Shown here: piece by piece, positions 1-11,689 of the stretch
Layout: the number at the start of each line of letters is the position of its first letter
Position numbering within the stretch: the stretch's first letter is position 1
Source: Myxococcaceae bacterium
GTDB taxonomy: Bacteria; Myxococcota_A; Polyangia; Polyangiales; Ga0077539
DNA: 36,402 nt
Assembly (NCBI GenBank): GCA_028287085.1
Contig: JAQBQI010000500.1
Coordinates: 1-36,402, forward strand
Direction: 5' to 3'
Position numbers and translations under genes: made by a program
The notes under the pieces: model-generated
Seen by the model: the letters and a program-made list of their open reading frames with translations, nothing else
The model's database searches: none
What the model was told of the DNA's origin: nothing

Positions 1-552
1 GCCGTCGCGCGCCTCTGGCGCACGGCGGACGACGAGTTCGAAGCGGACGCCCTCGCTCTCCTGACGGCGGTCGCGCGCGCCGACCGTGACTTCGAGCCCC
101 GCATCGCCGCCCGCGGTTGGCTGGCGACGATGGAGACCGACCCGATTGAACCCGGCGACGTCGAGGTGCTCGCGTTCAGGGCCAGCTCCGCGCGCGTGCC
201 ACGCACCATCGAGGTGCTCACGACCCACACGCTGGTCGACCTCGTCTCCGCCGTCGTGACCGTGTTCTCCTGGGACCACGACCACCTCTGGGCGCTCACG
301 CTGAGCACCGAGTTCGAGCAGGAGGACTTCTACGTCTCGCCCGAGGGCGATCCGTGGGAGGTCGACGACGGCCCCGCGGCCGCGACGCTCGGAGTTCTGG
401 GCATCCCCGTCGGCCACTGCTTCGAGCTCGTCTACGACCTCGGTCGACGGCACCGCGTCGCCCTCCAGCGGGTCGCCACCGCGCCGAAGCCGAAGCCGCG
501 CGCGAAGTACCCGCGGGTCGCGGTCACGGCCGGCAAGCCCTCGACGCGATAG
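1..552 (+). CDS. pRiA4b ORF-3-like protein, 5'-truncated by window edge
   Basis: The frame is open from base 1, so the N-terminus lies outside the window; the first ATG at 130 is probably internal. The visible C-terminal 183 residues carry two stretches typical of the plasmid pRiA4b ORF-3-like fold: DHDHLWAL in the middle, and FELVYDLGRRHRVALQRV near the end. In this family the second stretch usually reads as an aromatic-Tyr-Asp-(Phe/Leu)-Gly strand. The tail is Lys/Pro-rich (APKPKPRAKYPR). No biochemical activity is established for the family; its members are common on plasmids and mobile islands. Base composition is high-GC like the rest of the host-type DNA, unlike the element that starts at 814. 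The antisense frame over its last 120 bases is only the run-on tail of the integrase ORF. Confidence 0.6.
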   Translation, partial: AVARLWRTADDEFEADALALLTAVARADRDFEPRIAARGWLATMETDPIEPGDVEVLAFRASSARVPRTIEVLTTHTLVDLVSAVVTVFSWDHDHLWALTLSTEFEQEDFYVSPEGDPWEVDDGPAAATLGVLGIPVGHCFELVYDLGRRHRVALQRVATAPKPKPRAKYPRVAVTAGKPSTR

Positions 553-2096
553 TACGGGAGGCGTACGATGTTCCAACGAAGTGCGGGGACGTCGCGACGG
601 CGTGGTTCCGATCGCGACTCAGCCGCAGCTCCGAGCTCCTGCGCTACGACCTGACCCACGCCGAGGGCGAGGACCCGGCGCTCTTCCTGTCCGGCAGAAC
701 GTCCCGCAGGACCTCCACGCGGTGTCACCGGTGTGTCAGACACAGGGGACGCAGCCGGGCTATTTGGGCGACCCGCCCCCCGGCGTCGATCGCTCAAATT
801 CGCTTGTTTTCCAGTGCCCAGAGACGGAGTCGAACCGCCGACACGGGGATTTTCAAGGCAATTACGCGCAGTTACGATCATATTCCCTCGGGAATCTTCG
901 GCACTGTTTTCCGAGGGCTGCCCCAATTGACCGTCAGCGTGTCCCTTTAGTGTCCCCCGGTTTCCGTCGCCGAAGACGAGTCCTCTTCTCAACTCTCCGA
1001 GTTCAGGGTCACCTGGAGGTGGTGATGCCAAACCGTCTCTGAGCTCCGAAGCCTGAAAAGTGGAAGCGATGCGTGCTTCAAGGGTCTGAGCAGCCAGCTT
1101 TCCATACACTAGCTCAACCATTCTCGTAGTTCTGTGCCCCATAATCGGGGAGATAAGCTCCAGGGGAACAGAGTCTCTCCGCATCCACTGGGCAAAGGTA
1201 CGGCGCAGGTCGTTAGGGCTACAAGGAGCGATCCCTGCGGCTTTGCAGGAGCCATTCAGGTCCCTAAACCTGTTTCCGTCCAGCCAAGGACCGAATAGCA
1301 GCCCATCCTTTCCCTCGGCGTGACGCAAGGCATACGTCAACAGATTGAACTGCCATTTGGCAACGATGGGAACCACCCTGCGTGCATCGGAGGTCTTTGT
1401 TCCTGGAAGATGGACCTGCCAGCGAACCTGATCAACGTGCGCCCAGCGGGTAGAATGGGCTTCACTGAGCCTCGCTCCGGTCGCAACGATGAATGCCACA
1501 AGGGCTGCACGATCCGGAATCAGTTCCCCAAGCAAGCCGTGGAGTTCTTCGTGGCTGAGACTACGGCTCCTGGGTCTATACTCCGAGGAAAAGCCAACTG
1601 GGAATACTCGATCAATCTCCCCGTTCCACATTCCAGAGCGCTTGGCCAGCTTGACCGCACATCTGAGCGTGACGATCTCCTTGAAGACCGTGGTATCCTT
1701 TCGTCCCAGCTTCCTTCTTCCGTCGATGTAGTCGTCGATAACCTTGCCGCACAAGTCCCTGAGAAGAAGGTCCTTTCCGAGAGCAGCCTCCAGAACCTTC
1801 CTCTTGCTGTTGTAGCAGCCAACAGTTGCAGAACTCGTCTTCCCCGAGCGAACTCTGCCCGCTCTGTCCTTCAAGAGAAGGTCGAGCGCCTGAGATAGTG
1901 TTGCAGTGGCCTGGAGGTGTTTCTCGGGATACTCAGCCCGTTCCACAGCCTCACGCTCCATCTTGATAGCCAAAATCTCCGCCGTCTTACGGTCAGTAGT
2001 ATTGGCACAGCGCTTGATGCGCTTCTTTTGCTCACCAGACCTAACCCAATACCAGAAATACCAGTTGGGGTTGCCTTTCTTCTTGAAGAGTTTCAC
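432..2096 (-). CDS. int: Tyrosine recombinase (integrase) reading through the attachment core
   Basis: Site-specific recombinase that would integrate and excise the element. The N-terminal 60 residues are basic and aromatic (arm-binding type), a SAM-like core-binding region covers about 65-160, and the catalytic domain about 175-345. Visible catalytic residues are R209 in ATGARLSEA, K234 in GTKTSDARR, N295 and R298 in SPNDLRRTF (Asn replaces the usual His), H321 in MGHRTTRM and nucleophile Y331. The start is a GTG with a weak ribosome site, 13 bases after the stop of the small upstream gene, so the two are probably co-transcribed. Oddity: there is no stop codon between Y331 and the core. The frame passes through the 44-bp core (residues 414-428) and ends at 432 inside flanking DNA, giving 554 residues. 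In the excised circle the same frame would stop at the TAG at 11366-11368, giving 449 residues. The tail beyond about 350 is probably not part of the fold. Confidence 0.9.
   Translation of the reverse strand: MKLFKKKGNPNWYFWYWVRSGEQKKRIKRCANTTDRKTAEILAIKMEREAVERAEYPEKHLQATATLSQALDLLLKDRAGRVRSGKTSSATVGCYNSKRKVLEAALGKDLLLRDLCGKVIDDYIDGRRKLGRKDTTVFKEIVTLRCAVKLAKRSGMWNGEIDRVFPVGFSSEYRPRSRSLSHEELHGLLGELIPDRAALVAFIVATGARLSEAHSTRWAHVDQVRWQVHLPGTKTSDARRVVPIVAKWQFNLLTYALRHAEGKDGLLFGPWLDGNRFRDLNGSCKAAGIAPCSPNDLRRTFAQWMRRDSVPLELISPIMGHRTTRMVELVYGKLAAQTLEARIASTFQASELRDGLASPPPGDPELGELRRGLVFGDGNRGTLKGHADGQLGQPSENSAEDSRGNMIVTARNCLENPRVGGSTPSLGTGKQANLSDRRRGAGRPNSPAASPVSDTPVTPRGGPAGRSAGQEERRVLALGVGQVVAQELGAAAESRSEPRRRDVPALRWNIVRLPYYRVEGLPAVTATRGYFARGFGFGAVATRWRATRCRRPRS
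814..857 (-). repeat. Left attachment core: 3' half of tRNA-Phe
   Basis: The 44 bases match 11433-11476 exactly. On the minus strand the segment starts in the anticodon loop and ends two bases past the acceptor stem (CTGGGCAC). The next bases are TGG, so no CCA is encoded here. The 5' half of the tRNA is absent next to it. The whole core is translated as residues 414-428 of the integrase reading frame. Crossover in an anticodon loop is a known class of integrase target. Confidence 0.92.
940..960. repeat. Putative integrase arm-type site, left end
   Basis: The sequence TGTCCCTTTAGTGTCCCCCG lies 83 bases inside the left core. A copy in the same direction at 11346-11366 matches 17 of 21 positions. 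Both hold two GTCCC units and lie at a similar distance from their cores, as expected of arm sites bound by the integrase N-terminus. Function is inferred. Confidence 0.4.
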
Positions 2097-2109
2097 TGCC
2101 TGACCGCTC

Positions 2110-2430
2110 TCAGCCGACCACAGATGTACCGAAGAGCCGATCGAGCACCTCCGAGCGAACTTCCTTCTGCGGCTGAGGCTTCTGCCCGCCCTTGAGGTAC
2201 TTCTCCACCTCCTCCACAGTTACACCTGCGTTGCTCAGGATGGGACCGAGGGACTGGGCCAGGAGCACCGAGATACGAGTCCCCTGAAGCTTGGAGGTGG
2301 CATGGAGCACCTTCCAGACCGTAGAGGGCAAGGCGACGCTAACCTGCTCGCCGTCTCCCCGAGCCTTGCGAACGGTCTTCTGGGTCGAAACCTTCGTAGC
2401 AGCCTTCGTATCCGTGGTGCTCTTCGCCAT
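2110..2430 (-). CDS. Small ribbon-helix-helix-like DNA-binding protein, integrase partner
   Basis: A 106-residue protein with a Lys/Thr-rich N-terminus (MAKSTTDTKAATKV), then a segment from about residue 29 (QVSVALPSTVWKVLHATSK) that looks like the beta strand and first helix of a ribbon-helix-helix fold, and a second helix (ISVLLAQSLGPIL). The C-terminal third is charged. The ATG is preceded by GGGAGG at good spacing. It lies 13 bases upstream of the integrase start, so one transcript is likely. In that position it could be a directionality factor or an autorepressor; the 12-bp inverted repeat just upstream (2444-2506) would suit an operator. No close family is recognised, so the fold call is moderate and the role is inference. 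Confidence 0.65.
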   Translation of the reverse strand: MAKSTTDTKAATKVSTQKTVRKARGDGEQVSVALPSTVWKVLHATSKLQGTRISVLLAQSLGPILSNAGVTVEEVEKYLKGGQKPQPQKEVRSEVLDRLFGTSVVG

Positions 2431-2443
2431 GATCAGCCTCCCT

Positions 2444-2506
2444 TGGTTGTTTCGTAGTGCCGTGCAAGAGGCTCATTCCCCTCACACAGCAACAACGAAA
2501 CAACCA
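2444..2506 (-). promoter_or_regulatory. 12-bp inverted repeat upstream of the integrase operon
   Basis: TGGTTGTTTCGT at 2444-2455 and its exact reverse complement at 2495-2506, 39 bases apart, sit immediately upstream of the ribosome site of the small DNA-binding gene. The AT-rich stretch beyond it contains several ACAAC units. This suits an operator/promoter controlling the 2430-to-432 transcription unit, but no clear -35/-10 pair was identified. Confidence 0.5.
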
Positions 2507-2639
2507 TACAACATTCATTGAGCGAATACAACAGGTAAGGCAGGAGAATACATAGATCTTCGAGCATCGTGTCATCACGAAGGTTTCAGCCACAGACGGG
2601 CCAACTGTGACCCCAAAGCCCATACTGAAGGGCGTTTGC

Positions 2640-4595
2640 TCAAAGCGCAGCGAACTGCCTTTCAATGTCGAGCCTGGACCTCTCCTCTTGCTCGGCTGAA
2701 GTCTCTCCAAGAGCATTCGTCCACAGTCGATCACGTTCCAATTGCTGCGGAGAACGAGTCACAGGACGAAGCAACCGCTCCCGAGCCTCTCTCAACGCCT
2801 CCGTGGTCCTCGCAACCCTCTCCCCCAGGTCCGACACCTTCTCGTAAGCCTCCTCTGTGGCAGGAGGGGACTCTCCCGGAACCAGAGCAGCTTCCGTGTC
2901 GTTTGCGGGCGCTACTGAGGCGGTGGGAGGGCTCGGGAAGTGATGCTGAACGGGGGTTGAGCTCCCCTTGATCCGTGCGTATTCGTCCTGAAGAACCCGG
3001 ATCTGACGAAAAACATAGGCTTTTGGCAGGGGAATGCTCTGAATATTCCTGGGGAGCGAGTTGACGCTCACGTTCCAGTATCTTCGCTGGACGCCATCGA
3101 TCTTCCTCCGACTAACAGAAAATCCCTCCGCTCGAAGTACGTCAGCAACAACGTTTGGATCGATCTTCTTCTTGAACTTCCATCCACAGAGATTCTCCAG
3201 CATTTGCTGGTAAGCATCTGCGATCTCACTGAGGCTGGCTTCGTACCCATTGCTCTTCTCCAGGGGACCCATGAAGGCGTCTTCTTCTGGAGTTGGCTCA
3301 TACTCTTCACCCGCGGACAGTCTTCGCTTGGTCGTCTTCTGCGCTTGAAACTTCGAAGCACTTTTGACAATGGTCTCGATCTCAGCGTTGGAAAACGACT
3401 TTGGTGCCTCCATAGAGCTCGCTCGCAATCTATCCAGGAATCTCCCAATACCGTCCTTCTCGTAAGCTCGGTGAACCCGAAGGTAGCAGGCAATCCTATA
3501 GGCGGCTCTGTTGCGACAGCCAGAAGGCACACAGAAAGGAATATCGTTCTCCGTCCATTCCACCATCTTCTTGGCGGCGCCTCTCTGCACACACCAGAAG
3601 GCTGACTCGGGCACCGATGCCTTACCCTCAGCCCTGGGCAGGGTGACACCTAAATCAGGGGAGGGGGAGAAGGAATAAGCAACACCTCTCTCTTGAACAG
3701 AAGAGACAGGAGAAGAAAAGGATGAGGAAAGAATCCTTGTCTCCATCTCCTTACCAAGAAAGCCTATCTCATCCGAATAGCAGTGAGAATCTCTTGCAAA
3801 TCCGTAGGTCCCCTTAGCCCCCCTCGACCCAGGAATCACTCCCTGTCCACCTTTGCCACGAGTATCCACACAATGCATGAATCTGACCGTATTAGCGATC
3901 TCCACCGCTGAAAGGTAGTAAAGATGGAGGCCGCCGCTCTGGGTCTTCACCACCACAGTCTTCTGCGCCTCCAATTCTCGCAAGATGCTCCACTGTCTCC
4001 ATGGATCGTCCGTGTCTAGGTCAACGATCACAAGATAGACTGGCTTCTCACCTTCGAAGCCCAGGAGCCCCGTCTTGACCCCAACGTTGATCCCACAGCC
4101 CCAGAAATACAGCCAATCTGCCAAGACAAAGACGCTGGCGGTTCCCTTCTCGGAACTGGTCCAGTCCAGAATTCTGGGGTGCTTCCCCGGCTTCTCGCAC
4201 CTTATTCTTCCTCTACATGTACAGACACCATCGGAATCCACCCCATAAAGAGGGATCAGCCTGATGTTCGGATGAATATCTAGGATAGGCTTCAGGTTCT
4301 CGGCCATGGCTACCAGCGACAATAGAACTCTCTCTGCATCTACAAGAGTTGGCGAGGGAACCTTGCCCCTTGGGTTCCAGGCAAGGCTCCCATGACTCTT
4401 CAGCAGTCGGGAGAGCAGTTGCTCTGCCGTAACGCTTCGAACCTGATCCAATCGAACATCTTGAAAGCCAGCTTCCATGAATTCCTCCAGTACAAGTGGC
4501 GCCCTGCGGCGCCGTACCAGAGCATGACATCTAGCCGCCTCACCTTGAACCCAATTTCCCCAGTCTTCTTCGGCAGATGGGAAGGCATGGTTCAC
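2640..4595 (-). CDS. PrimPol-type bifunctional DNA primase/polymerase
   Basis: A 651-residue replication protein. The N-terminal 100 residues are unassigned. A Cys/His cluster follows at 125-139 (CTCRGRIRCEKPGKHP), as in many PrimPol proteins. The archaeo-eukaryotic primase core shows the metal-binding acidic motif VIVDLDTDD (D192, D194), the basic motif SGGLHLYY (220-227) and VDTRGKGGQGVIPGS (243-257). Residues about 345-425 look like a primase C-terminal helical domain, and the C-terminal 100 residues are charged and coiled. No helicase Walker motifs are present in this protein or elsewhere in the element, so unwinding would have to come from the host. Such proteins start replication of plasmids, satellites and integrative elements. 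The start is a GTG after a GGGGGG run. It stands alone on the minus strand with gaps on both sides. Confidence 0.87.
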   Translation of the reverse strand: MNHAFPSAEEDWGNWVQGEAARCHALVRRRRAPLVLEEFMEAGFQDVRLDQVRSVTAEQLLSRLLKSHGSLAWNPRGKVPSPTLVDAERVLLSLVAMAENLKPILDIHPNIRLIPLYGVDSDGVCTCRGRIRCEKPGKHPRILDWTSSEKGTASVFVLADWLYFWGCGINVGVKTGLLGFEGEKPVYLVIVDLDTDDPWRQWSILRELEAQKTVVVKTQSGGLHLYYLSAVEIANTVRFMHCVDTRGKGGQGVIPGSRGAKGTYGFARDSHCYSDEIGFLGKEMETRILSSSFSSPVSSVQERGVAYSFSPSPDLGVTLPRAEGKASVPESAFWCVQRGAAKKMVEWTENDIPFCVPSGCRNRAAYRIACYLRVHRAYEKDGIGRFLDRLRASSMEAPKSFSNAEIETIVKSASKFQAQKTTKRRLSAGEEYEPTPEEDAFMGPLEKSNGYEASLSEIADAYQQMLENLCGWKFKKKIDPNVVADVLRAEGFSVSRRKIDGVQRRYWNVSVNSLPRNIQSIPLPKAYVFRQIRVLQDEYARIKGSSTPVQHHFPSPPTASVAPANDTEAALVPGESPPATEEAYEKVSDLGERVARTTEALREARERLLRPVTRSPQQLERDRLWTNALGETSAEQEERSRLDIERQFAAL

Positions 4596-5003
4596 CTACA
4601 CCCCCCATTGTACCTTCCGCTAGACTGACTCTGAACCCCATTTGCAGATTTCTGTCCCACAGACCGATCGAGACGTAGAAACCTCTACGTTTCAAGGACT
4701 TTGGCGTCGCAAGGAGAGGTGGGGCGAGCCCTTCAGATAGACCACCCTTTCCCCGGCCCTCGTTCCAACCATCCGTCAGGAACACAGCTCAACGCATCCT
4801 ACGGACCAAAATCTTCGAATTTTGTCAAATGACGAGTCTTTTTGCGGTCGGCAACGACGGTGGAACGTCGTAGCCAACCCGAGCAGGTTCATGCCTCTTG
4901 GAGAGAGAACGAAGATCAACTCCAGTAAAGGTCAGACTCCAAAGCATTCATCACTTCAATGATCCGGGCCAAGGATGGTGAGTTTGAGCGTTTGTGGAAT
5001 ACG
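4596..5003. other. Intergenic region upstream of the primase gene, with an AT-rich hairpin
   Basis: About 400 bases with no convincing gene. A short antisense frame reaching into the primase start shows no recognisable features. It contains a hairpin at 4807-4824 (CAAAAT, six-base loop, ATTTTG) next to an AT-rich tract, the most AT-rich spot here. Its place just upstream of a PrimPol gene makes it a possible replication origin or promoter zone, but no iterons were found. Confidence 0.35.
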
Positions 5004-5360
5004 CTACTTGGCTAGGCGAACCAGAAGCACTTCTCCAGCATGACGACCGAGAAGCCACTCAGTCAGTCGAATCTCTTGTTCCATAGAGGGATCTTGGGCA
5101 ATGAACGATTCAGAAATCCCATCCCACATGCCTTCAAAGAAATCGAGGCCGTCGAACCCGTTGTTCTTCAGGTCTTCAGTGATCGGCTCTAGCTCTTGGT
5201 GGCTCATTGTGCAGACCGCTGCGATCTGGTCCTTCCGCAAGCAGGAGAATCGAGATGCAAACTCCTCGAATCCACCTGGATACGAACGAACCGAGAACGC
5301 ATCCAATCTCACAATGAGGAAGCAGAACATGACCTTGATTTCATCGCCATTGGGTGTCAT
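5004..5360 (-). CDS. Hypothetical acidic 118-residue protein
   Basis: The protein is not recognised. It starts MTPNGDEIK and has a hydrophobic stretch near the start (VMFCFLIVRLDAF), too short and interrupted for a sure membrane segment. The rest is mixed and acidic (ELEPITEDLKNNGFDGLDF, then EQEIRLTEWLLGRH). No catalytic motif stands out. Composition matches the element rather than the flanks. The ATG at 5360 has only a weak ribosome site, so the exact start is unsure. Its neighbours are the primase downstream and the membrane-protein gene upstream on the same strand, with gaps on both sides that argue against tight coupling. Confidence 0.5.
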   Translation of the reverse strand: MTPNGDEIKVMFCFLIVRLDAFSVRSYPGGFEEFASRFSCLRKDQIAAVCTMSHQELEPITEDLKNNGFDGLDFFEGMWDGISESFIAQDPSMEQEIRLTEWLLGRHAGEVLLVRLAK

Positions 5361-5663
5361 GGAACCTATGATGCATCATTGGTGTTCGGTTGTGCTCCAA
5401 GGCGGACAGTTCTTCAGACCGCTACGTCCTCCACTCTCGGCCTAGAAGACCTAACGAGAGCCCCGTAGTGCTCCAACAGGGGCTTCCGTACCCACCTAGG
5501 GGGGAGCCGCTGCCAACATCACCAGACCCCCCTACTCCCTTCTGAGAGGGTCAGACCCCAAAGCGTACAAAGGAACCAAAATTCCAGGGGAGGGAGGCTC
5601 CTCCCAGTTCTGGTCTCAGTTTCAAAAATTCTGGATGGGAGAAATTGACGGCTACAGCGGACT
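5361..5663. other. Intergenic region without a supported gene
   Basis: About 300 bases of the element between two minus-strand genes. It holds a short hairpin (AGCCCC at 5459-5464 and GGGGCT at 5479-5484, 14-base loop) without a clear T tract, so it is at best a weak terminator for the 7602-to-5664 unit. Nothing else was seen. Confidence 0.3.
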
Positions 5664-5969
5664 CTACCGCCGGGAACGGTGTCTCCGGGCGCTGCCATGA
5701 GAATTCGCAGGGGATCTAGAGTTCGACGGGGATGGTTGAACGGCTGGAAAGACAGAACTTGTTCCGGCATCCTGTCCCTCTCTGGTCGGTTCAGAGGGCT
5801 CGGAAGGCCGAGATCTTTCCGCTGGGAATTCACCGAAGAGGTTCCCATGCACCCATGAACTGCATGTGCAGACCCCAATCGATCCAACAACGATGATGAA
5901 GGTGAGGCATCCGAAAACGGACCCACAACCATCGGGAAGGTTGAATCCCACCATCTTGTAATGGCTCAA
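5664..5969 (-). CDS. Small single-pass membrane protein
   Basis: A 101-residue protein with one hydrophobic segment near residues 19-36 (VFGCLTFIIVVGSIGVCTCS) followed by a long polar Ser/Pro/Arg-rich tail (RPSEPSEPTREGQ). The TTG start at 5969 is favoured because GGAG lies six bases upstream; the ATG at 5954 has no such site. It follows the lipoprotein gene by 13 bases, so the two are probably co-transcribed and may act together at the envelope. No family is recognised. The disordered tail and small size leave some chance that this is not a real gene. Confidence 0.5.
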   Translation of the reverse strand: MSHYKMVGFNLPDGCGSVFGCLTFIIVVGSIGVCTCSSWVHGNLFGEFPAERSRPSEPSEPTREGQDAGTSSVFPAVQPSPSNSRSPANSHGSARRHRSRR

Positions 5970-5982
5970 GGTCTTCTCCGTC

Positions 5983-7602
5983 CTACAGTCCCAGGATGTC
6001 TCCCAAGTCCGGCCCTGGCCTTGGGTTCCTCGGCCGGGCCCGGTGGTGATGCCTCGGCCTCCCTACTGCATCAATAGCGGCTCCCGAGGAGGCAGCCCCA
6101 GCGTCCACCCCAGGGCCTCCAGCGTCCGTAGAAGCAGATGGAGCTGCTGGCGGAGGTGTTGGTTCCTGCCTTCTCGGGCTGCCAGCGAGGTCTACCTCAA
6201 GAACGGCTCTGGGCCGTGGCAGTCCTCCAAAGTCATCCTGCCACCATCCCGGAAGGTTATCCGCAGGCACATAGATCAGCTTGTAGCCGACCGGCAGGGG
6301 GCCTTGCGGCAGTGGTTGCGGCAACAGGAACGTGCATGAGCCATCTGTCGGTTGATTCGGCCTCGGATGTGGCCCGCCAGCCCTTGTCGGGACCAGTCGG
6401 TTGCCATCCGGGAATTGGAGCATAATCCCCTGCCCTGCAAACAGCCGCCGGTCACTGCACACGAACCTGACAATCCGCTCCGTCGTCAGAGCAGTCCATC
6501 GAACGGTCAGCCTGAGACCATTCCCGGAAAGTTCAGCCCCAGACACGGAAACGGTAATGGGCGTGATCGCCCGTCGTGCATCATGTCCGAAGTAGCGTCG
6601 GATTCCGATGAAGGTGTTTCCGCCCGAGCTCCAGACCAGTGGGAATGTTACCTCTTGCCCAAGTTGGGTGACCACCGGATAGACCGTTGCCGGAGGTGGC
6701 GGAAGTGAACATCCAGCCCTCGGCGTCTCTGCGACTGTGATTCCAGCCAGCGGAACCGCGTCCCATTGCCAGTGTCCGGCCGTCTTGCGAAGAATTTGCT
6801 GACCATGAATACGAAGGAGGCTCCCGACTCCCAGATCCGCCAGAACTCCACCGGGAGCGACTGATTCCTGAGGCACTCGGATCTGGAACGATGAAAGACC
6901 TTCGCCTCCAAGGCACGTCACGACACCTGAACCGTTTTCGATAGCTGCACTCAGAGCAATGCAGTTCTGGTCTTGCTCAGGGTGAAGATTTTCAGCGTCT
7001 CGGAGGCGTCGAGTCAGTTCAGGCTCTTGTGGTTGACCATTCACAAGGTAGGGATTTCCACTTCCGGCGGGGGTTCTGACACGCCAGAAGTGGCTACACA
7101 TCCCGGCAGACCGATTGACACAGGATGCCTGTGAACCGGCGGTCTCCCAAAAGCCCCTGCGGCTGCCAGCGTTCCATCCCCAATCGCACCAACATCCGTA
7201 CGTTGCTGGAATGTCGACCATCCGAGTCTGCCAGTTAGTATCCCAGGTCCAAGCGATCGATGGATCAGAGTGGTCTGGTGAGACGTGTCCATCCATGAGG
7301 TGTTGCAGTGCGACCAGCAACCGTCCGGTGGCGTTTGCACTGGCCACACCCTCAGGAGAAAGACAGGGCGAAGCAATGATGCGTTCGGTAGCGGTACCAG
7401 CGTCCACCGAAGCACCTTCTCTCTGACGAGGGAGGCCGTGAACTGAAGAGTACGAGATCTCGGGAGTCCCTCGGGAGCCTCGACCAGCCCCCGTTTCGGG
7501 CTGATCGTGTCCAAGGGCATGACCGGCTTGCTTACATCCGCCTACTAAGACCCACACTAGAATTTGAGTGGCATGAAGTGTTCTTAGGCCATTGATATTC
7601 AT
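5983..7602 (-). CDS. Predicted lipoprotein, 539 residues, element cargo
   Basis: The start is placed at the ATG at 7602 because GGGAGA lies eight bases upstream and the protein then opens with a lipoprotein signal: a hydrophobic stretch ending VLVGGC with C23 as the lipidated residue. A frame 12 codons longer exists but would bury the signal. The mature part is Cys- and Trp-containing (YGCWCDWGWNAG), then has several beta-rich stretches such as TFPLVWSSGGNTFIGIRRYF, and ends in a Pro/Ala-rich low-complexity tail and a His/Arg/Pro-rich terminus. No enzyme motif is recognised. It is divergent from the XRE regulator gene (about 50 to 100 bases apart) and lies upstream of the small membrane protein. 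It may be a surface or exclusion-type function of the element; that is speculation. Confidence 0.75.
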   Translation of the reverse strand: MNINGLRTLHATQILVWVLVGGCKQAGHALGHDQPETGAGRGSRGTPEISYSSVHGLPRQREGASVDAGTATERIIASPCLSPEGVASANATGRLLVALQHLMDGHVSPDHSDPSIAWTWDTNWQTRMVDIPATYGCWCDWGWNAGSRRGFWETAGSQASCVNRSAGMCSHFWRVRTPAGSGNPYLVNGQPQEPELTRRLRDAENLHPEQDQNCIALSAAIENGSGVVTCLGGEGLSSFQIRVPQESVAPGGVLADLGVGSLLRIHGQQILRKTAGHWQWDAVPLAGITVAETPRAGCSLPPPPATVYPVVTQLGQEVTFPLVWSSGGNTFIGIRRYFGHDARRAITPITVSVSGAELSGNGLRLTVRWTALTTERIVRFVCSDRRLFAGQGIMLQFPDGNRLVPTRAGGPHPRPNQPTDGSCTFLLPQPLPQGPLPVGYKLIYVPADNLPGWWQDDFGGLPRPRAVLEVDLAGSPRRQEPTPPPAAPSASTDAGGPGVDAGAASSGAAIDAVGRPRHHHRARPRNPRPGPDLGDILGL

Positions 7603-7648
7603 CTGGAATCTCCCCTGTTTCCGGTAGAGAGGTCCCACAAAGCTCGAC

Positions 7649-8023
7649 TTGCGTCAAGATCTATGTTGGCTCAAGGCGCAAGTTTGTACTCCGCTACGGG
7701 TGAAGCGGACTCGCAGGAACCAAGAGGAAAGCCGGAGTTCGGAGGTATGGAAACGCCCCGATCTGGTTGCTCAGATCGAGCTAGAACAGAAGAGGCTTGG
7801 AGAACGCTTTCGAGAACTACGAACTCTTTGCAAACTGACCCAAGAGCAAGCCGCAGAGAAGGCAGGGCTTCATGTGACCCATCTCTCTCGGATTGAAGGA
7901 GGACTGGTGAATATCAGTTTTGGAACCCTTGTTTCTCTCGCAAGGTCGTACGAAGTTTCCCTTCGAGAGCTGTTTCCCGAATCCGCGGTCACATCTGCTG
8001 AAGAGAGCGCACTCAAACGCTGA
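7649..8023 (+). CDS. XRE-family helix-turn-helix transcriptional regulator
   Basis: Residues about 45-108 form a Cro/C1-type domain: LGERFRELRTLCKLTQEQ, AEKAGLHVTHLSRIEGG and FGTLVSLARSYEVSLREL match the five-helix pattern, with TQEQAAEKAG as helix 2 and VTHLSRIEGG as the recognition helix. The first 40 residues are basic and may not be translated. The longest start is a TTG at 7649; a GTG at 7700 is an alternative and neither has a strong ribosome site. It is divergent from the lipoprotein gene and 216 bases upstream of the HEPN-type gene on the same strand, so it is placed to regulate either or both. The family usually acts as a repressor of mobile-element or defence operons. Confidence 0.85.
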   Translation: MRQDLCWLKAQVCTPLRVKRTRRNQEESRSSEVWKRPDLVAQIELEQKRLGERFRELRTLCKLTQEQAAEKAGLHVTHLSRIEGGLVNISFGTLVSLARSYEVSLRELFPESAVTSAEESALKR

Positions 8024-8239
8024 GACGAGAGTCCTACGAAGCGCCGAGGCTTCACAAAGATGTCAGACACGTCAGCCATATTCCTGACTGTTTCAGTTCG
8101 GTCCATGGCCAGGCCTTGTGTTCTGCCCTTCAGTTCCCCCCGTCCTTGCTCCGGGGCGGAGTAAAACGGTTCGAACCTTCCCGGCCTTCCACGGAAAACT
8201 GGACAACATGCGGAGGCAACCCTAATCTGCGAAAACAAC
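8024..8239. other. Gap between regulator and HEPN-type gene
   Basis: No gene is supported here. It is the likely promoter/leader of the downstream HEPN-type gene. No clear inverted repeat or promoter pair was found. Confidence 0.3.
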
Positions 8240-10093
8240 ATGCTACAAATCGCTTCCGGCAAGTTTTTCAGCGGCAGAGATCGTCACATCCACAGCTGCA
8301 AGGGCATTCTTTATTCTAACTATTCTTGGATTGGCCCCATCGAGACCGTGGCTGGCACTTTGGAACCTGTGGGCCCTTATTCATCTTCTGTTACGGGGTA
8401 TGTCCTCAATTATATCAATCAAATCGAGAGAACTGATGGGCCCGGAGGCATCGTACAGGTCGGTGACTCGGAGATCGTCGAGCAATTCCGACTTCTGTCG
8501 ATGTTTGGCCTTCAGGCTCACTTTGGGCATGACCGTCGTGAGGTAGAGGAGAATTGTCGTAGTCGCCCATCTCGCCCCAGCGATTCGTTTCTGCCTTCTC
8601 AATTTGTCCCACGGTTCTTTACGCCCGCAATTCACGGCAGTCTTGACGAGGTCGAGCGCTTTCAGTCCTTTTTAAGGAAGGCGATCGGTCTTCCACGAAA
8701 GGTCTACCAATCCCTGATCTCTTGTCTTTCAAACCTCGATCATGCTCTTGAAGTCCTTAACTACAACGTTGACCTTGCATATTCAATGCTTGTGTACTGC
8801 CTTGAGTCGCTGTGTCAGAGCTTTGGCGAGCAGCCTGATGCCGCATGGGAGGATTACGACGAGAAGACGAGGTCGTCTCTCGACATCGAACTCGCTAAAA
8901 TTGATCCAAATGCAGCCAAAGTCCTTCGAGATATCTTGCTCCGAGAGGCGCATCTCAAACTCCAGGCAAAATTTCTGGAGTTCGTGATCGGGCATACGTC
9001 ACCGACCTACTATACCACTGAAGCGACTGGAGTTGAACGTCCGGTGCGTCGCAGCGAACTGCGTCAAGCCCTGAAAAACGCCTATCTCTTCCGTTCTCTC
9101 TATGCTCACAAGCTCCAGCAGATGCTTCACCAACTACGTGTGCCTACCATTGCCAAGTCAGAGATATTCACATGGGAGAATCAGCCCTATTTGACATTCC
9201 GAGGCTTGCTCCGCCTCGTGCTCCATGTGTTTCGCAATTTTATTGAGTCTCAGCCGTCCATGGACACCGAAGAATACAACTGGAGAGGCGACCTTCCGGG
9301 GGTGATTCGCCTGAAGGCCGCGCCTCAATATTGGATTTGGCAGGCAGATGCGCTTGGGCAACCGATGACTAAGCAATTCCGAGAAGAGGCCGTTCGCTCT
9401 CGATTCAATGGTTTTCTAGAGCATCTCCAAGAAGCCATCATCACAAAGGGTGCTTTGACTGACCTTAGATCACTGCTTGAAAAGTACGAGGAGATATTCC
9501 CACAATCGCCTGCCAATGATCGCCTTAGGATGCTCGTACCCTATATTCTCTACAATCGCATCATTACACCTGACGGAAGATCAACGAACTGCGATGAATT
9601 TATCAACAAGCACTCTTCGATTTTGGACAATTGCAGCATTGATAGCATGATTGTGCACCTTATTCTTACAGAGGACTTTCCCTGGCAATATTCTGAAGCC
9701 CGCGAGGTCTACGACGCCTATGCCAAACAGCGATTTTCACCCAAAGCGATTCGGCTTCCTTTTCTATTTGAGATGAAGCTGGTTCTTGCTCTGGCGAACA
9801 AGGCGCTGGCGCAAGGCGAGGTCGGTAGTTACCGTACTCTTCTGGACGCTGCGATAAGCGAAGCGGCCGGCAATACTTCGCTCCAAGACATGGTCATTGC
9901 AGCCATGAAGGACGAGGTTGCAGCCCCGCACCGACAAGTTTTCACGATACTGTCCGACCCTACGCCTCAGCAGCCGGGTATGGAACCGGAACCTACCGCC
10001 GTGGCGGCAGAAGATGCGCCTTCTGGTTCAGAAGTAGAATCGGTGCCACCTCAGGCTCCTGAGGTTCTCTCAAAAGACAGTTTCAACGACTGA
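8240..10093 (+). CDS. HEPN-type 617-residue protein, candidate defence effector
   Basis: A large soluble protein with no signal peptide. The N-terminal third (1-130) begins with a beta-rich module (SGKFFSGRDRHIHSCKGILY, then IETVAGTLEPV). A helical core follows at about 140-335. Within it LEVLNYNVDLAYSMLVYCLE (170-189) and AYLFRSLYAHKLQQM (281-295) resemble the two central helices of HEPN domains. R285 and H290 give an R-x4-H signature, the catalytic motif of HEPN ribonucleases. The C-terminal half (340-560) is helical and may be a sensor. The last 50 residues are Pro/Glu-rich and disordered. The layout recalls ApeA-like HEPN proteins, but that is structural inference without a search. The ATG at 8240 has no good ribosome site. 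Third-position usage is less GC-rich than the host, fitting the element. It is probably cargo regulated by the XRE protein upstream. Confidence 0.7.
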   Translation: MLQIASGKFFSGRDRHIHSCKGILYSNYSWIGPIETVAGTLEPVGPYSSSVTGYVLNYINQIERTDGPGGIVQVGDSEIVEQFRLLSMFGLQAHFGHDRREVEENCRSRPSRPSDSFLPSQFVPRFFTPAIHGSLDEVERFQSFLRKAIGLPRKVYQSLISCLSNLDHALEVLNYNVDLAYSMLVYCLESLCQSFGEQPDAAWEDYDEKTRSSLDIELAKIDPNAAKVLRDILLREAHLKLQAKFLEFVIGHTSPTYYTTEATGVERPVRRSELRQALKNAYLFRSLYAHKLQQMLHQLRVPTIAKSEIFTWENQPYLTFRGLLRLVLHVFRNFIESQPSMDTEEYNWRGDLPGVIRLKAAPQYWIWQADALGQPMTKQFREEAVRSRFNGFLEHLQEAIITKGALTDLRSLLEKYEEIFPQSPANDRLRMLVPYILYNRIITPDGRSTNCDEFINKHSSILDNCSIDSMIVHLILTEDFPWQYSEAREVYDAYAKQRFSPKAIRLPFLFEMKLVLALANKALAQGEVGSYRTLLDAAISEAAGNTSLQDMVIAAMKDEVAAPHRQVFTILSDPTPQQPGMEPEPTAVAAEDAPSGSEVESVPPQAPEVLSKDSFND

Positions 10094-10262
10094 TTTCGAC
10101 ACCCGAGATGTTGAGTTGGTGCTGGTCGTTACGTCGAACTCATGCGTTGGGGAGTCCGATAAATTTGAGATCGCTTTTCCGGATCTAGGTGGAACCTATC
10201 GGTTCTCTTCGGATCTGTTTCAATTCTAATGGTTTGGAACACCCCCAAACCTGCACCGCAGG

Positions 10263-10922
10263 TCACTTGTTTTCGGGCATTTCAGAAGGGGGCTGACGAG
10301 GGGGATTTGGAACAGCGTCCTGAGCAGCCTTGAGAGCCCTGTGAACGTTGGTCGGACTGGTGCCCAGGGTCTTGGCAAGCTGTCGCACCGACATCCCCTG
10401 TCCCTTCATGGCCAGTACCTGCTTTGGGTCCAGCCGAAGACCTGGACGGCCGAGCACCACGCCCCTCCGCTTGGCGGCCTGGAGACCGGAGTGAACCCTG
10501 GACACGATCACGTCACGCTCAAAGGCAGCGAAGGCTGAGACGAGGTGGAGCAAGAGGCGTCCGGTGGGAGTTGTCATGTCGAACGGCTCCGTCACAGACA
10601 CGAAGTCGATCCCCAAGGAAGCGAGCTCCTCCAAGCACATGACCATGTGCCTCATCGAGCGGAAGAGTCTATCCGAGCGGTAGACCACCAAGACATCGAA
10701 CTTCCTTGCATGGGCTGCCTTCATGAGCCGGTCGAGCTCTGGTCTCCGGTCTTTTGTGCCGGAGACTCCCTTGTCTTCGAACGTGTCCGCCAGCTTCCAT
10801 CCTCTGCGCTCGATGAACTCGACAGTTTCGTCTGATTGAAGAGCTGTGTCCTGCTCCTTGGTGGAGACCCTCAGGTACCGAGCAGCTCGGACAGTCTTGG
10901 TGGAGAGGCCTGCGTTTGCCAT
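10263..10922 (-). CDS. Small serine recombinase (resolvase/invertase family)
   Basis: A 219-residue enzyme. The catalytic domain opens with ARYLRVSTKEQDT, with S20 the nucleophile, then GVSGTKDRRPELDRLM, VVYRSDRLFRS and GRLLLHLVSAFAAFERD, all classical resolvase/invertase motifs, leading into the long E helix. The C-terminal 55 residues carry a helix-turn-helix (GMSVRQLAKTLGTSPTNVHR), so the length fits the small-serine class that resolves dimers or inverts segments. It is divergent from a ribbon-helix-helix-like gene across an AT-rich spacer with an inverted repeat (10938-10975) that could be its crossover or operator site. A second recombinase besides the integrase suggests dimer resolution for a replicating form of the element. 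Confidence 0.92.
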   Translation of the reverse strand: MANAGLSTKTVRAARYLRVSTKEQDTALQSDETVEFIERRGWKLADTFEDKGVSGTKDRRPELDRLMKAAHARKFDVLVVYRSDRLFRSMRHMVMCLEELASLGIDFVSVTEPFDMTTPTGRLLLHLVSAFAAFERDVIVSRVHSGLQAAKRRGVVLGRPGLRLDPKQVLAMKGQGMSVRQLAKTLGTSPTNVHRALKAAQDAVPNPPRQPPSEMPENK

Positions 10923-10937
10923 CGAGCCACTTTAATA

Positions 10938-10975
10938 TATGATATCAAAAACATCAACGTATTGTTGATATCATA
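10938..10975. promoter_or_regulatory. Divergent promoter/operator or res-like site
   Basis: TATGATATCAA at 10938-10948 and its reverse complement TTGATATCATA at 10965-10975 form a perfect 11-bp inverted repeat with a 16-base spacer, in the only strongly AT-rich intergenic spot at this end. An extra ATCAA/TTGAT half-site lies inside. It sits between the start codons of the serine recombinase and the ribbon-helix-helix-like gene, suiting either an operator or a recombination site. Confidence 0.6.
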
Positions 10976-10986
10976 AATGGTGCTCT

Positions 10987-11277
10987 GTGACAAAATCGAA
11001 GACGAGTCCACCCCGAGGTAGAGGCAGGCCCAGGAAGCAGGAGGGCGAGGTGCAGCCGTTCCTGCTCAGGCTGCCCATGGAGCTTCACCGTCAGCTCCGA
11101 CACCATGCTCTGGATGCGGGCAGCAGCCTCCAGGATGTTCTGGTCGAGGTGATCGAGGGATGGTGGAGCGAACAGAGGGCGAAGCAGCCCGCCCCACCCA
11201 AAGCCTCGGATGCGAGCCCTCAAGATGGACTGGACGGCCCCGGAGTCTCTCCGACGCCACTTTCTGAGCCCAGGTAG
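10987..11277 (+). CDS. Ribbon-helix-helix-like small DNA-binding protein
   Basis: A 96-residue basic protein. The N-terminus is Arg/Gly/Pro-rich (PRGRGRPRKQEG, AT-hook-like). Then VQPFLLRLPMELHRQLRHHA and SSLQDVLVEVIEGWWSEQ look like the beta strand, helix A and helix B of a ribbon-helix-helix domain (about 25-70), followed by a Pro/Ser-rich tail. The start is a GTG, 12 bases after the inverted repeat in the divergent promoter, so autoregulation is plausible. The stop codon TAG lies inside a fragment matching the 5' half of tRNA-Phe (11268-11297), so the tail may have been set by a recombination event. The DNA composition is more GC-rich than the centre of the element. Confidence 0.65.
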   Translation: MTKSKTSPPRGRGRPRKQEGEVQPFLLRLPMELHRQLRHHALDAGSSLQDVLVEVIEGWWSEQRAKQPAPPKASDASPQDGLDGPGVSPTPLSEPR

Positions 11278-11297
11278 CTCAGTTGGTCGAGCAGGGG
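11268..11297 (+). other. 5' half of a tRNA-Phe gene, inverted relative to the 3' fragments
   Basis: The first 20 bases, GCCCAGGTAGCTCAGTTGGT, continued by CGAGCAGGGG, match the 5' acceptor strand, D arm and anticodon 5' stem of bacterial tRNA-Phe. The acceptor strand GCCCAGG pairs with the TCTGGGC of the nearby 3' fragment (six pairs plus G-T). That 3' fragment lies on the opposite strand at 11433-11476, and the sequence after 11297 does not continue as a tRNA. This is a relic, not a functional gene. Confidence 0.65.
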
Positions 11298-11345
11298 GAC
11301 GGAACCAGCAGGAGCAACCCAAGGGCATCCCCAGAGGCCGCTTCC

Positions 11346-11366
11346 TGTCCCCCTGGTGTCCCCCGC
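11346..11366. repeat. Putative integrase arm-type site, right end
   Basis: A direct-repeat partner of 940-960 (17 of 21 positions), 66 bases inside the right core. It also overlaps the TAG that would end the integrase frame in the excised circle. Confidence 0.4.
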
Positions 11367-11396
11367 TACGTCGGGGACTTCTTCCGGTGGTGGGGG

Positions 11397-11426
11397 GTCC
11401 TCGGAATTGGCAGCAATTCCAAGGAC
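11397..11426. repeat. 13-bp imperfect hairpin beside the right core
   Basis: GTCCTCGGAATTG at 11397-11409 pairs with CAATTCCAAGGAC at 11414-11426 with one mismatch and a four-base loop (GCAG). It ends six bases from the attachment core. There is no T tract, so an architectural or recombinase-binding role is likelier than a terminator. Confidence 0.5.
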
Positions 11427-11432
11427 TTGTTG

Positions 11433-11476
11433 GTGCCCAGAGACGGAGTCGAACCGCCGACACGGGGATTTTCAAG
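11433..11476 (-). repeat. Right attachment core: 3' half of tRNA-Phe
   Basis: Identical to 814-857. Here the acceptor strand is followed by CCA on the minus strand (CTGGGCACCA), so this copy has an encoded CCA end that the left copy lacks. The bases preceding the anticodon loop on the minus strand are CGGGGC, not a tRNA 5' half, although four of them could still pair with the CCCC of the anticodon stem. Confidence 0.92.
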
Positions 11477-11689
11477 CCCCGCGGAGCGGCGACGCCGCAG
11501 CGGGAAAACAAGGGCATTGAGAGCGCCGCAGGAGGTGACGTCACAGATACGTCACAGCGCCCTCGGAGCGTAGGAAAGCGCGGGAAGACAGGGTCGATCG
11601 AGGAGGCGATCCCGCCGGTGCGGGCGGGGACTACGGGAGCTCGTGCGGCGCGGGCGGTGGTCCCGCTGAAGGCGATCACAGCGCCCAAG

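Follow-up and report, generated by a model that had tools for sequence, protein, structure and literature searches.

A probable myxobacterial integrative element whose integrase gene contains the attachment site: an atypical, probably inherited case of the Mx8-type arrangement

A 10.6-kb stretch (positions ~814-11476) in a contig of an uncultured myxobacterium is probably an integrative element, in which the frame of the tyrosine integrase gene would cross the attP of the element, both its core and its integrase-side arm, as in the arrangement known from Mx8. Because the attachment site lies inside the integrase gene, each integration or excision would change the integrase tail; this tail swap is a structural fact that follows from the sequence if the two cores recombine. 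The element would descend from a lineage in which the integrase frame reads a tRNA in antisense, its own core being reversed, and the swap would be a consequence of this inherited architecture. The explanation as a whole, including the nature of the 10.6-kb stretch, is given a probability of about 0.72. The window, i.e., the whole stretch of 36,402 nucleotides that was analyzed, corresponds to an entire contig from a draft genome in 876 contigs, with a completeness of 64.6%.

The stretch is bounded by an exact 44-bp direct repeat (44/44 identity), with no second occurrence of this core elsewhere in the assembly beyond the pair, and its G+C content is of ~55% against ~70% around. Besides the tyrosine integrase encoded on the minus strand, the element carries genes for a Prim-Pol protein, a helix-turn-helix protein and a small serine recombinase, together with further, unassigned ORFs (Table 1). 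The serine recombinase (10263-10922), encoded alongside the tyrosine integrase, could resolve dimers or have inverted a part of the element. Both repeats correspond to the 3' half of a tRNA-Phe, CCA following the right copy only, and relatives have a hairpin at the position equivalent to 11397-11426. In the computed circle, an 11-bp TGTCCC doublet flanks the core on both sides. Matching sites on either side of a core are the expectation for an attP, and these doublets can be inferred to be arm-type integrase sites. Given the 44/44 identity, and given that the doublet flanks the core left and right, chance does not account for the two repeats. A separate 5' fragment of tRNA-Phe also lies on the plus strand of the right end (11268-11297); taken with the right core, it makes up a tRNA that is divided at the anticodon stem and has its halves on opposite strands. 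A mechanism was sought for this fragment, which could not be tied to any one.

Table 1. Positions of the integrase gene, attachment site and neighboring features in the window
Feature	Coordinates	Strand	Evidence or remark
Tyrosine integrase frame, integrated form, 554 aa; start GTG 2096, stop 432-434	435..2096	-	PF00589, E 1.2e-12; phrog_1, E 1.9e-37
Residues 429-554 of the integrated form, a tail encoded by flanking host DNA	435..813	-	Negative codon score
Left flank resembling the integrase-side end of another element	718..813	+	~80% identity to G001:C15
Left attachment core, tRNA-Phe 3' half (positions 32-74), encoding residues 414-428	814..857	-	Sense relative to int
Integrase tail from Tyr to core, 82 codons; also holds the integrase-side attP arm	858..1103	-	Open only in the int frame; codon signal weak
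Integrase-side arm doublet TGTCCC-N5-TGTCCC, 11-bp period, sites 940/951	940..956	+	Putative arm-type integrase sites
Catalytic Tyr331 codon, GHRTTRMVELVYGKL	1104..1106	-	Invariant in alignments
Prim-Pol replication protein	2640..4595	-	PF09250, E 6.1e-13
Small serine recombinase (resolvase/DNA invertase type)	10263..10922	-	PF00239, E 1.1e-44; phrog_125 DNA invertase
Separate tRNA-Phe fragment, positions 1-30, in the right end of the element	11268..11297	+	Sequence match
Distal-arm doublet TGTCCC-N5-TGTCCC, sites 11346/11357	11346..11362	+	Putative arm-type integrase sites
TAG terminating the 449-aa integrase of the circular form	11366..11368	-	Read 11368-11366
Hairpin GTCCTTGGAATTG-CTGC-CAATTCCGAGGAC, directly past CCA and the 3' end of the tRNA; resembles a terminator but has no T-run	11397..11426	-	Read from sequence
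Right attachment core, identical 44 bp	11433..11476	-	CCA next on the element side

The integrase is assigned to the tyrosine recombinases by its match to the catalytic-domain profile and by its conserved catalytic residues, including the Tyr. R298 and Y331 are invariant in an alignment including Mx8 Int, and H321 is also invariant in the family alignments built without Mx8. The initial annotation had reported that no in-frame stop separates Y331 from the 44-bp core, that this core encodes residues 414-428, and that the frame yields 554 residues when integrated (stop at 432) and 449 in the circle (TAG at 11366-11368); the open frame and all coordinates are reproduced here. The integrated and circular integrases computed from the sequence are identical up to residue 428 and differ thereafter. 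Strand exchange in the core would join residues 1-428 either to an element-encoded tail of 21 residues, as at the computed circle junction, or to a tail encoded by the flank. In the window, the latter comprises 126 residues of unrelated flank devoid of coding signal according to the codon score. The circular form ends with ...HHRKKSPT and the integrated form with ...RCRRPRS.

Taken alone, the window is suggestive but not compelling as to a maintained frame, because the 82-codon run from Tyr to core would be open by chance with P = 0.027 (shuffles) and because the codon score of this tail, which beats shuffles (p = 0.009), is matched by that of frame +1. In a structure predicted from a shallow alignment of eight sequences (mean pLDDT 66), residues 1 to ~349 are folded and confident, pLDDT being mostly >80 up to residue 330, and residues 350-554, covering both tails, are disordered with pLDDT <50. 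The tail swap would thus alter a flexible region well outside the catalytic domain. The two tails had also been suggested to differ in stability; an ssrA-like ending was looked for on both and neither has one, so that a stability tag finds no sequence support.

Homologous integrases were collected from related genomes, GTDB contigs and IMG/VR, keeping distinct integrases with an alignable Tyr; the relatives that can be named are myxobacterial draft genomes. The survey set consists of the 62 integrases followed, within 600 bp after the Tyr, by an antisense tRNA gene or 3' fragment thereof. In 58 of them, no stop interrupts the int frame between the Tyr and a point 30 bp into the antisense tRNA, compared with 13/62 and 11/62 when the other two frames are read. 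The homologues thus do not display a stop conserved ahead of the core, which the initial annotation had named as an observation that would contradict its proposal. When the tRNA is intact, the frame nearly always terminates at the TGA of the conserved D-arm on the antisense strand, located at tRNA position 15-16 in 31 cases; these integrases finish with sequences such as VPRDGVEPPTRGFSIPCSTN or YRRSELNQRPWDYDSPALTD, and their median tail length past the Tyr is 77 residues. The remaining 27 open frames mostly meet a 3' fragment only (phage contigs, tandem or displaced copies), with a median tail of 99. Some integrase lineages end 15-30 residues after the Tyr. On these sequences, an attachment site placed inside the integrase gene is the usual arrangement across a broad group of integrases, most of them from Myxococcota.

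Both forms can be computed for two relatives of which the two ends are known, with 79 residues after the Tyr when integrated and 110 in the circle for G043:C145, and 78 and 103, respectively, for G007:C38. They carry doublets of their own at matching places, GTGCAGCACATGTGCAGCA in G043:C145, where the distal copy is slightly different, and TGTCACGCATGTGTCAC in G007:C38. Six-base doublets with 11-bp spacing are found between Tyr and core in 37/62 homologues; other spacings mostly occur in 2-10 of 62, the 9-bp one occurring in 32/62. This second doublet with a 9-bp period (e.g., TGGACTCCCTGGACT ), present in L109, L136, L157 and others, is possibly the site of another protein; it was looked for in the window tail and is absent there. 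In the family norm, the frame would cross the 3' half of the target tRNA in antisense and find its stop in the D-arm of the host tRNA; since this stop is supplied by the host tRNA, integration would lead to a short defined tail and excision to a longer one. No stop avoidance was detected past the core in the family frames (37.6 codons to the first stop versus 52.7 and 32.7), so that visible conservation of the frame ends at the tRNA and the tail of the excised form is not visibly selected. A degradation tag on the circle-form tails was considered and rejected, no consistent hydrophobic ending being found, as was a basic circle-specific tail, the net charge of which is not above that of the frame +1 control (0.160 vs 0.153).

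Other configurations were observed among the relatives. In G043:C145 (L069 and L102), elements are arranged in tandem at a single tRNA-Phe; the first, of 10.05 kb, is followed by a second integrase, the frame of which uses a displaced tRNA fragment and enters the distal end of the first element. L080 (G005:C211, 5616 bp) may be a circular element, its contig ends joining into a complete tRNA-Phe (ARAGORN c[5565,26]); it also has an isolated tRNA 5' fragment at 2056-2079.

The integrases of Myxococcota ending in a tRNA (e.g., G001:C29, G043:C145, L109, L136) are homologous to that of the window, with ~30-45% identity, and no close phage relative of the latter was found, the best reaching 25-30% identity. 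The window shares with them the open frame from Tyr to core, the 11-bp arm doublets and, for most, the tRNA-Phe target. However, the frame of these relatives enters an intact tRNA in antisense and ends at its D-arm TGA, whereas the window integrase reads a displaced fragment in sense (CLENPRVGGSTPSLGT) and stops in the flank; the core is antisense in all 58 overlapping homologues. In a tree of 67 homologues, five others have a sense tRNA match, of which two are clear (L114, L124) and the rest weak or to other tRNAs, and int stops before the match in all five; no other int in this tree overlaps a sense-oriented core. The window is nested among overlapping antisense lineages, on a long branch, and the simplest reading is therefore that its core block has been reversed relative to int. 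By sequence, the window is an atypical member of the Mx8-type arrangement, without the antisense core and the intact tRNA target typical of the family.

The landing site is also peculiar. No intact tRNA gene is present in the window, and no tRNA-Phe was found among the 30 tRNA loci scanned in this incomplete genome. The 5' half of the tRNA is missing from both flanks, and just four more tRNA bases lie beyond the right core. Positions 1-574 have 89% identity to G001:C106. In G001:C15 (window 718-813; L083 8391-8605), a relic of an integrase C-terminus, GHRDARMVERVYGRL, is seen just upstream of the same tRNA-Phe 3' fragment. As only four tRNA bases remain on the right and the left flank is like G001:C15, the element seems to have inserted into the remnant of an old attachment site and would thus sit in a displaced fragment of tRNA-Phe. 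A contiguous empty site was looked for but not found, the homologues of the left flank (G001:C106) and of the right flank (G001:C207) being on separate contigs, and no tRNA stands beside the homologous part in either. A 10-bp inverted repeat (CTTGTTTTCC / GGAAAACAAG, 803-812 and 11503-11512) would lie on either side of the core in an empty site.

Several known systems offer points of comparison. According to two reports, the attP of Mx8 lies within int and integration replaces the C-terminus of Int (PMC6070905, PMC4701971), the prophage form being described as less active (PMC4701971) or modified in specificity (PMC6070905). This documented arrangement supports the claim of the initial annotation that an attP inside int must change the C-terminus upon integration. 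Mx8 (AF396866) and the window have in common the attP within int, the swap of the C-terminus and an 11-bp arm doublet after the catalytic Tyr; in Mx8, TGTGACAGCGG occurs twice at 11 bp after the Tyr, and the motif GTGACAGC is found again past the core. In the window, likewise, the core is read in an uninterrupted frame, putative arm sites are placed on both sides of it and the C-terminus is replaced in the computed proteins. The two integrases are not close kin in sequence, with 19% identity in the alignment and no Mx8 match in a BLAST search with the window integrase. Moreover, integration shortens the Mx8 tail, from 112 to 13 residues, whereas it lengthens that of the window, and no integration into an intact tRNA gene is seen in the latter.

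Streptococcal elements in rumA also have the att site within the integrase gene, with C-termini swapped on integration (PMC4701971), but they rely on a serine integrase and on a protein-coding target. In mycobacteriophage BPs, attP lies within a regulatory gene and integration changes the protein (PMC4557955). The BPs immunity gene, however, encodes a repressor, the longer form of which has an ssrA-like tag, whereas the window gene encodes an integrase and no such tag is seen on either form. Integrases reaching across attP are listed as a known exception for Islander (PMC4383910).

Different explanations can be weighed against an inherited swap. The open frame could reflect an incidental read-through, the core having been flipped or the element having landed in a relic, with the stop context lost and the tail past residue 349 functionless here. 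This is a genuine possibility, held at somewhat less than even odds: it fits with a core reversed with respect to all 58 overlapping homologues, with the P of 0.027 for the absence of a stop and with a flank tail that is non-coding by codon score and predicted to be disordered, but the closest lineages mostly keep the frame open into the core, and the frame crosses an intact-looking two-arm attP. An evolved integration sensor, in which the 449-residue and integrated forms differ in activity, specificity or stability and thereby bias the element toward integration or maintenance, would have a precedent in Mx8, as described in PMC4701971 (less active form) and PMC6070905 (modified specificity), and would be consistent with the family-wide conservation of the frame, with a stop coming from the host tRNA. 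It is nevertheless unlikely, as the integrated tail depends here on an arbitrary flank, neither form has an ssrA-like ending and no stop avoidance exists past the core in the family. Of the proposal put forward in the initial annotation, the tail swap itself is retained, as deduced from sequence, whereas an evolved switch is not supported for this element, given the arbitrary, non-coding and disordered flank tail, the relic site and the reversed core.

It is very improbable that the repeat does not stem from the tyrosine integrase at all, either because a serine recombinase moves the element or because the junction is an assembly artefact. Indeed, although a resolvase/invertase gene is present on the element and the metagenome draft is fragmented (64.6% complete, 876 contigs), the core is a tRNA 3' half accompanied by paired 11-bp doublets, recurrent in relatives, and the G+C content shifts from ~0.55 to ~0.70 near both repeats. 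A core made of a tRNA 3' half and paired arm doublets both characterize the sites used by tyrosine integrases. The preferred explanation, an Mx8-type swap inherited with an atypical, reversed core, is favored by the exact repeat and the frames, the two-sided doublets, the 58/62 of the survey, the two relatives with both ends known, the plan of Mx8 and the nesting in the tree. It is weakened by the weak coding signal in the window tail, the 2.7% chance of openness, the unique sense core and the lack of stop avoidance past the core, and neither an excised circle nor an empty site was seen. By analogy with Mx8, the tail swap may alter activity or specificity, and the long integrated tail is probably incidental here.

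Mx8 has so far been cited among very few elements with an att site inside their own integrase gene. The principle being already known from Mx8, what is new is the survey, especially the family-wide regularity that the host tRNA usually supplies the stop codon of the integrase. A frame kept open into the tRNA and a stop supplied by the host lead to the testable hypothesis that integrase C-termini report the integration state. That the integrases of Myxococcota elements and phages do sense this state, the host D-arm TGA setting the C-terminus and excision giving a longer, element-encoded tail, with the window as a flipped-core derivative, is a tentative proposal that leans toward the doubtful; under it, the tail swap of the window would go in the opposite direction because the core is flipped. 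With its reversed core, the window is an odd case through which the contribution of the open frame can be told apart from that of a tail encoded by the tRNA.
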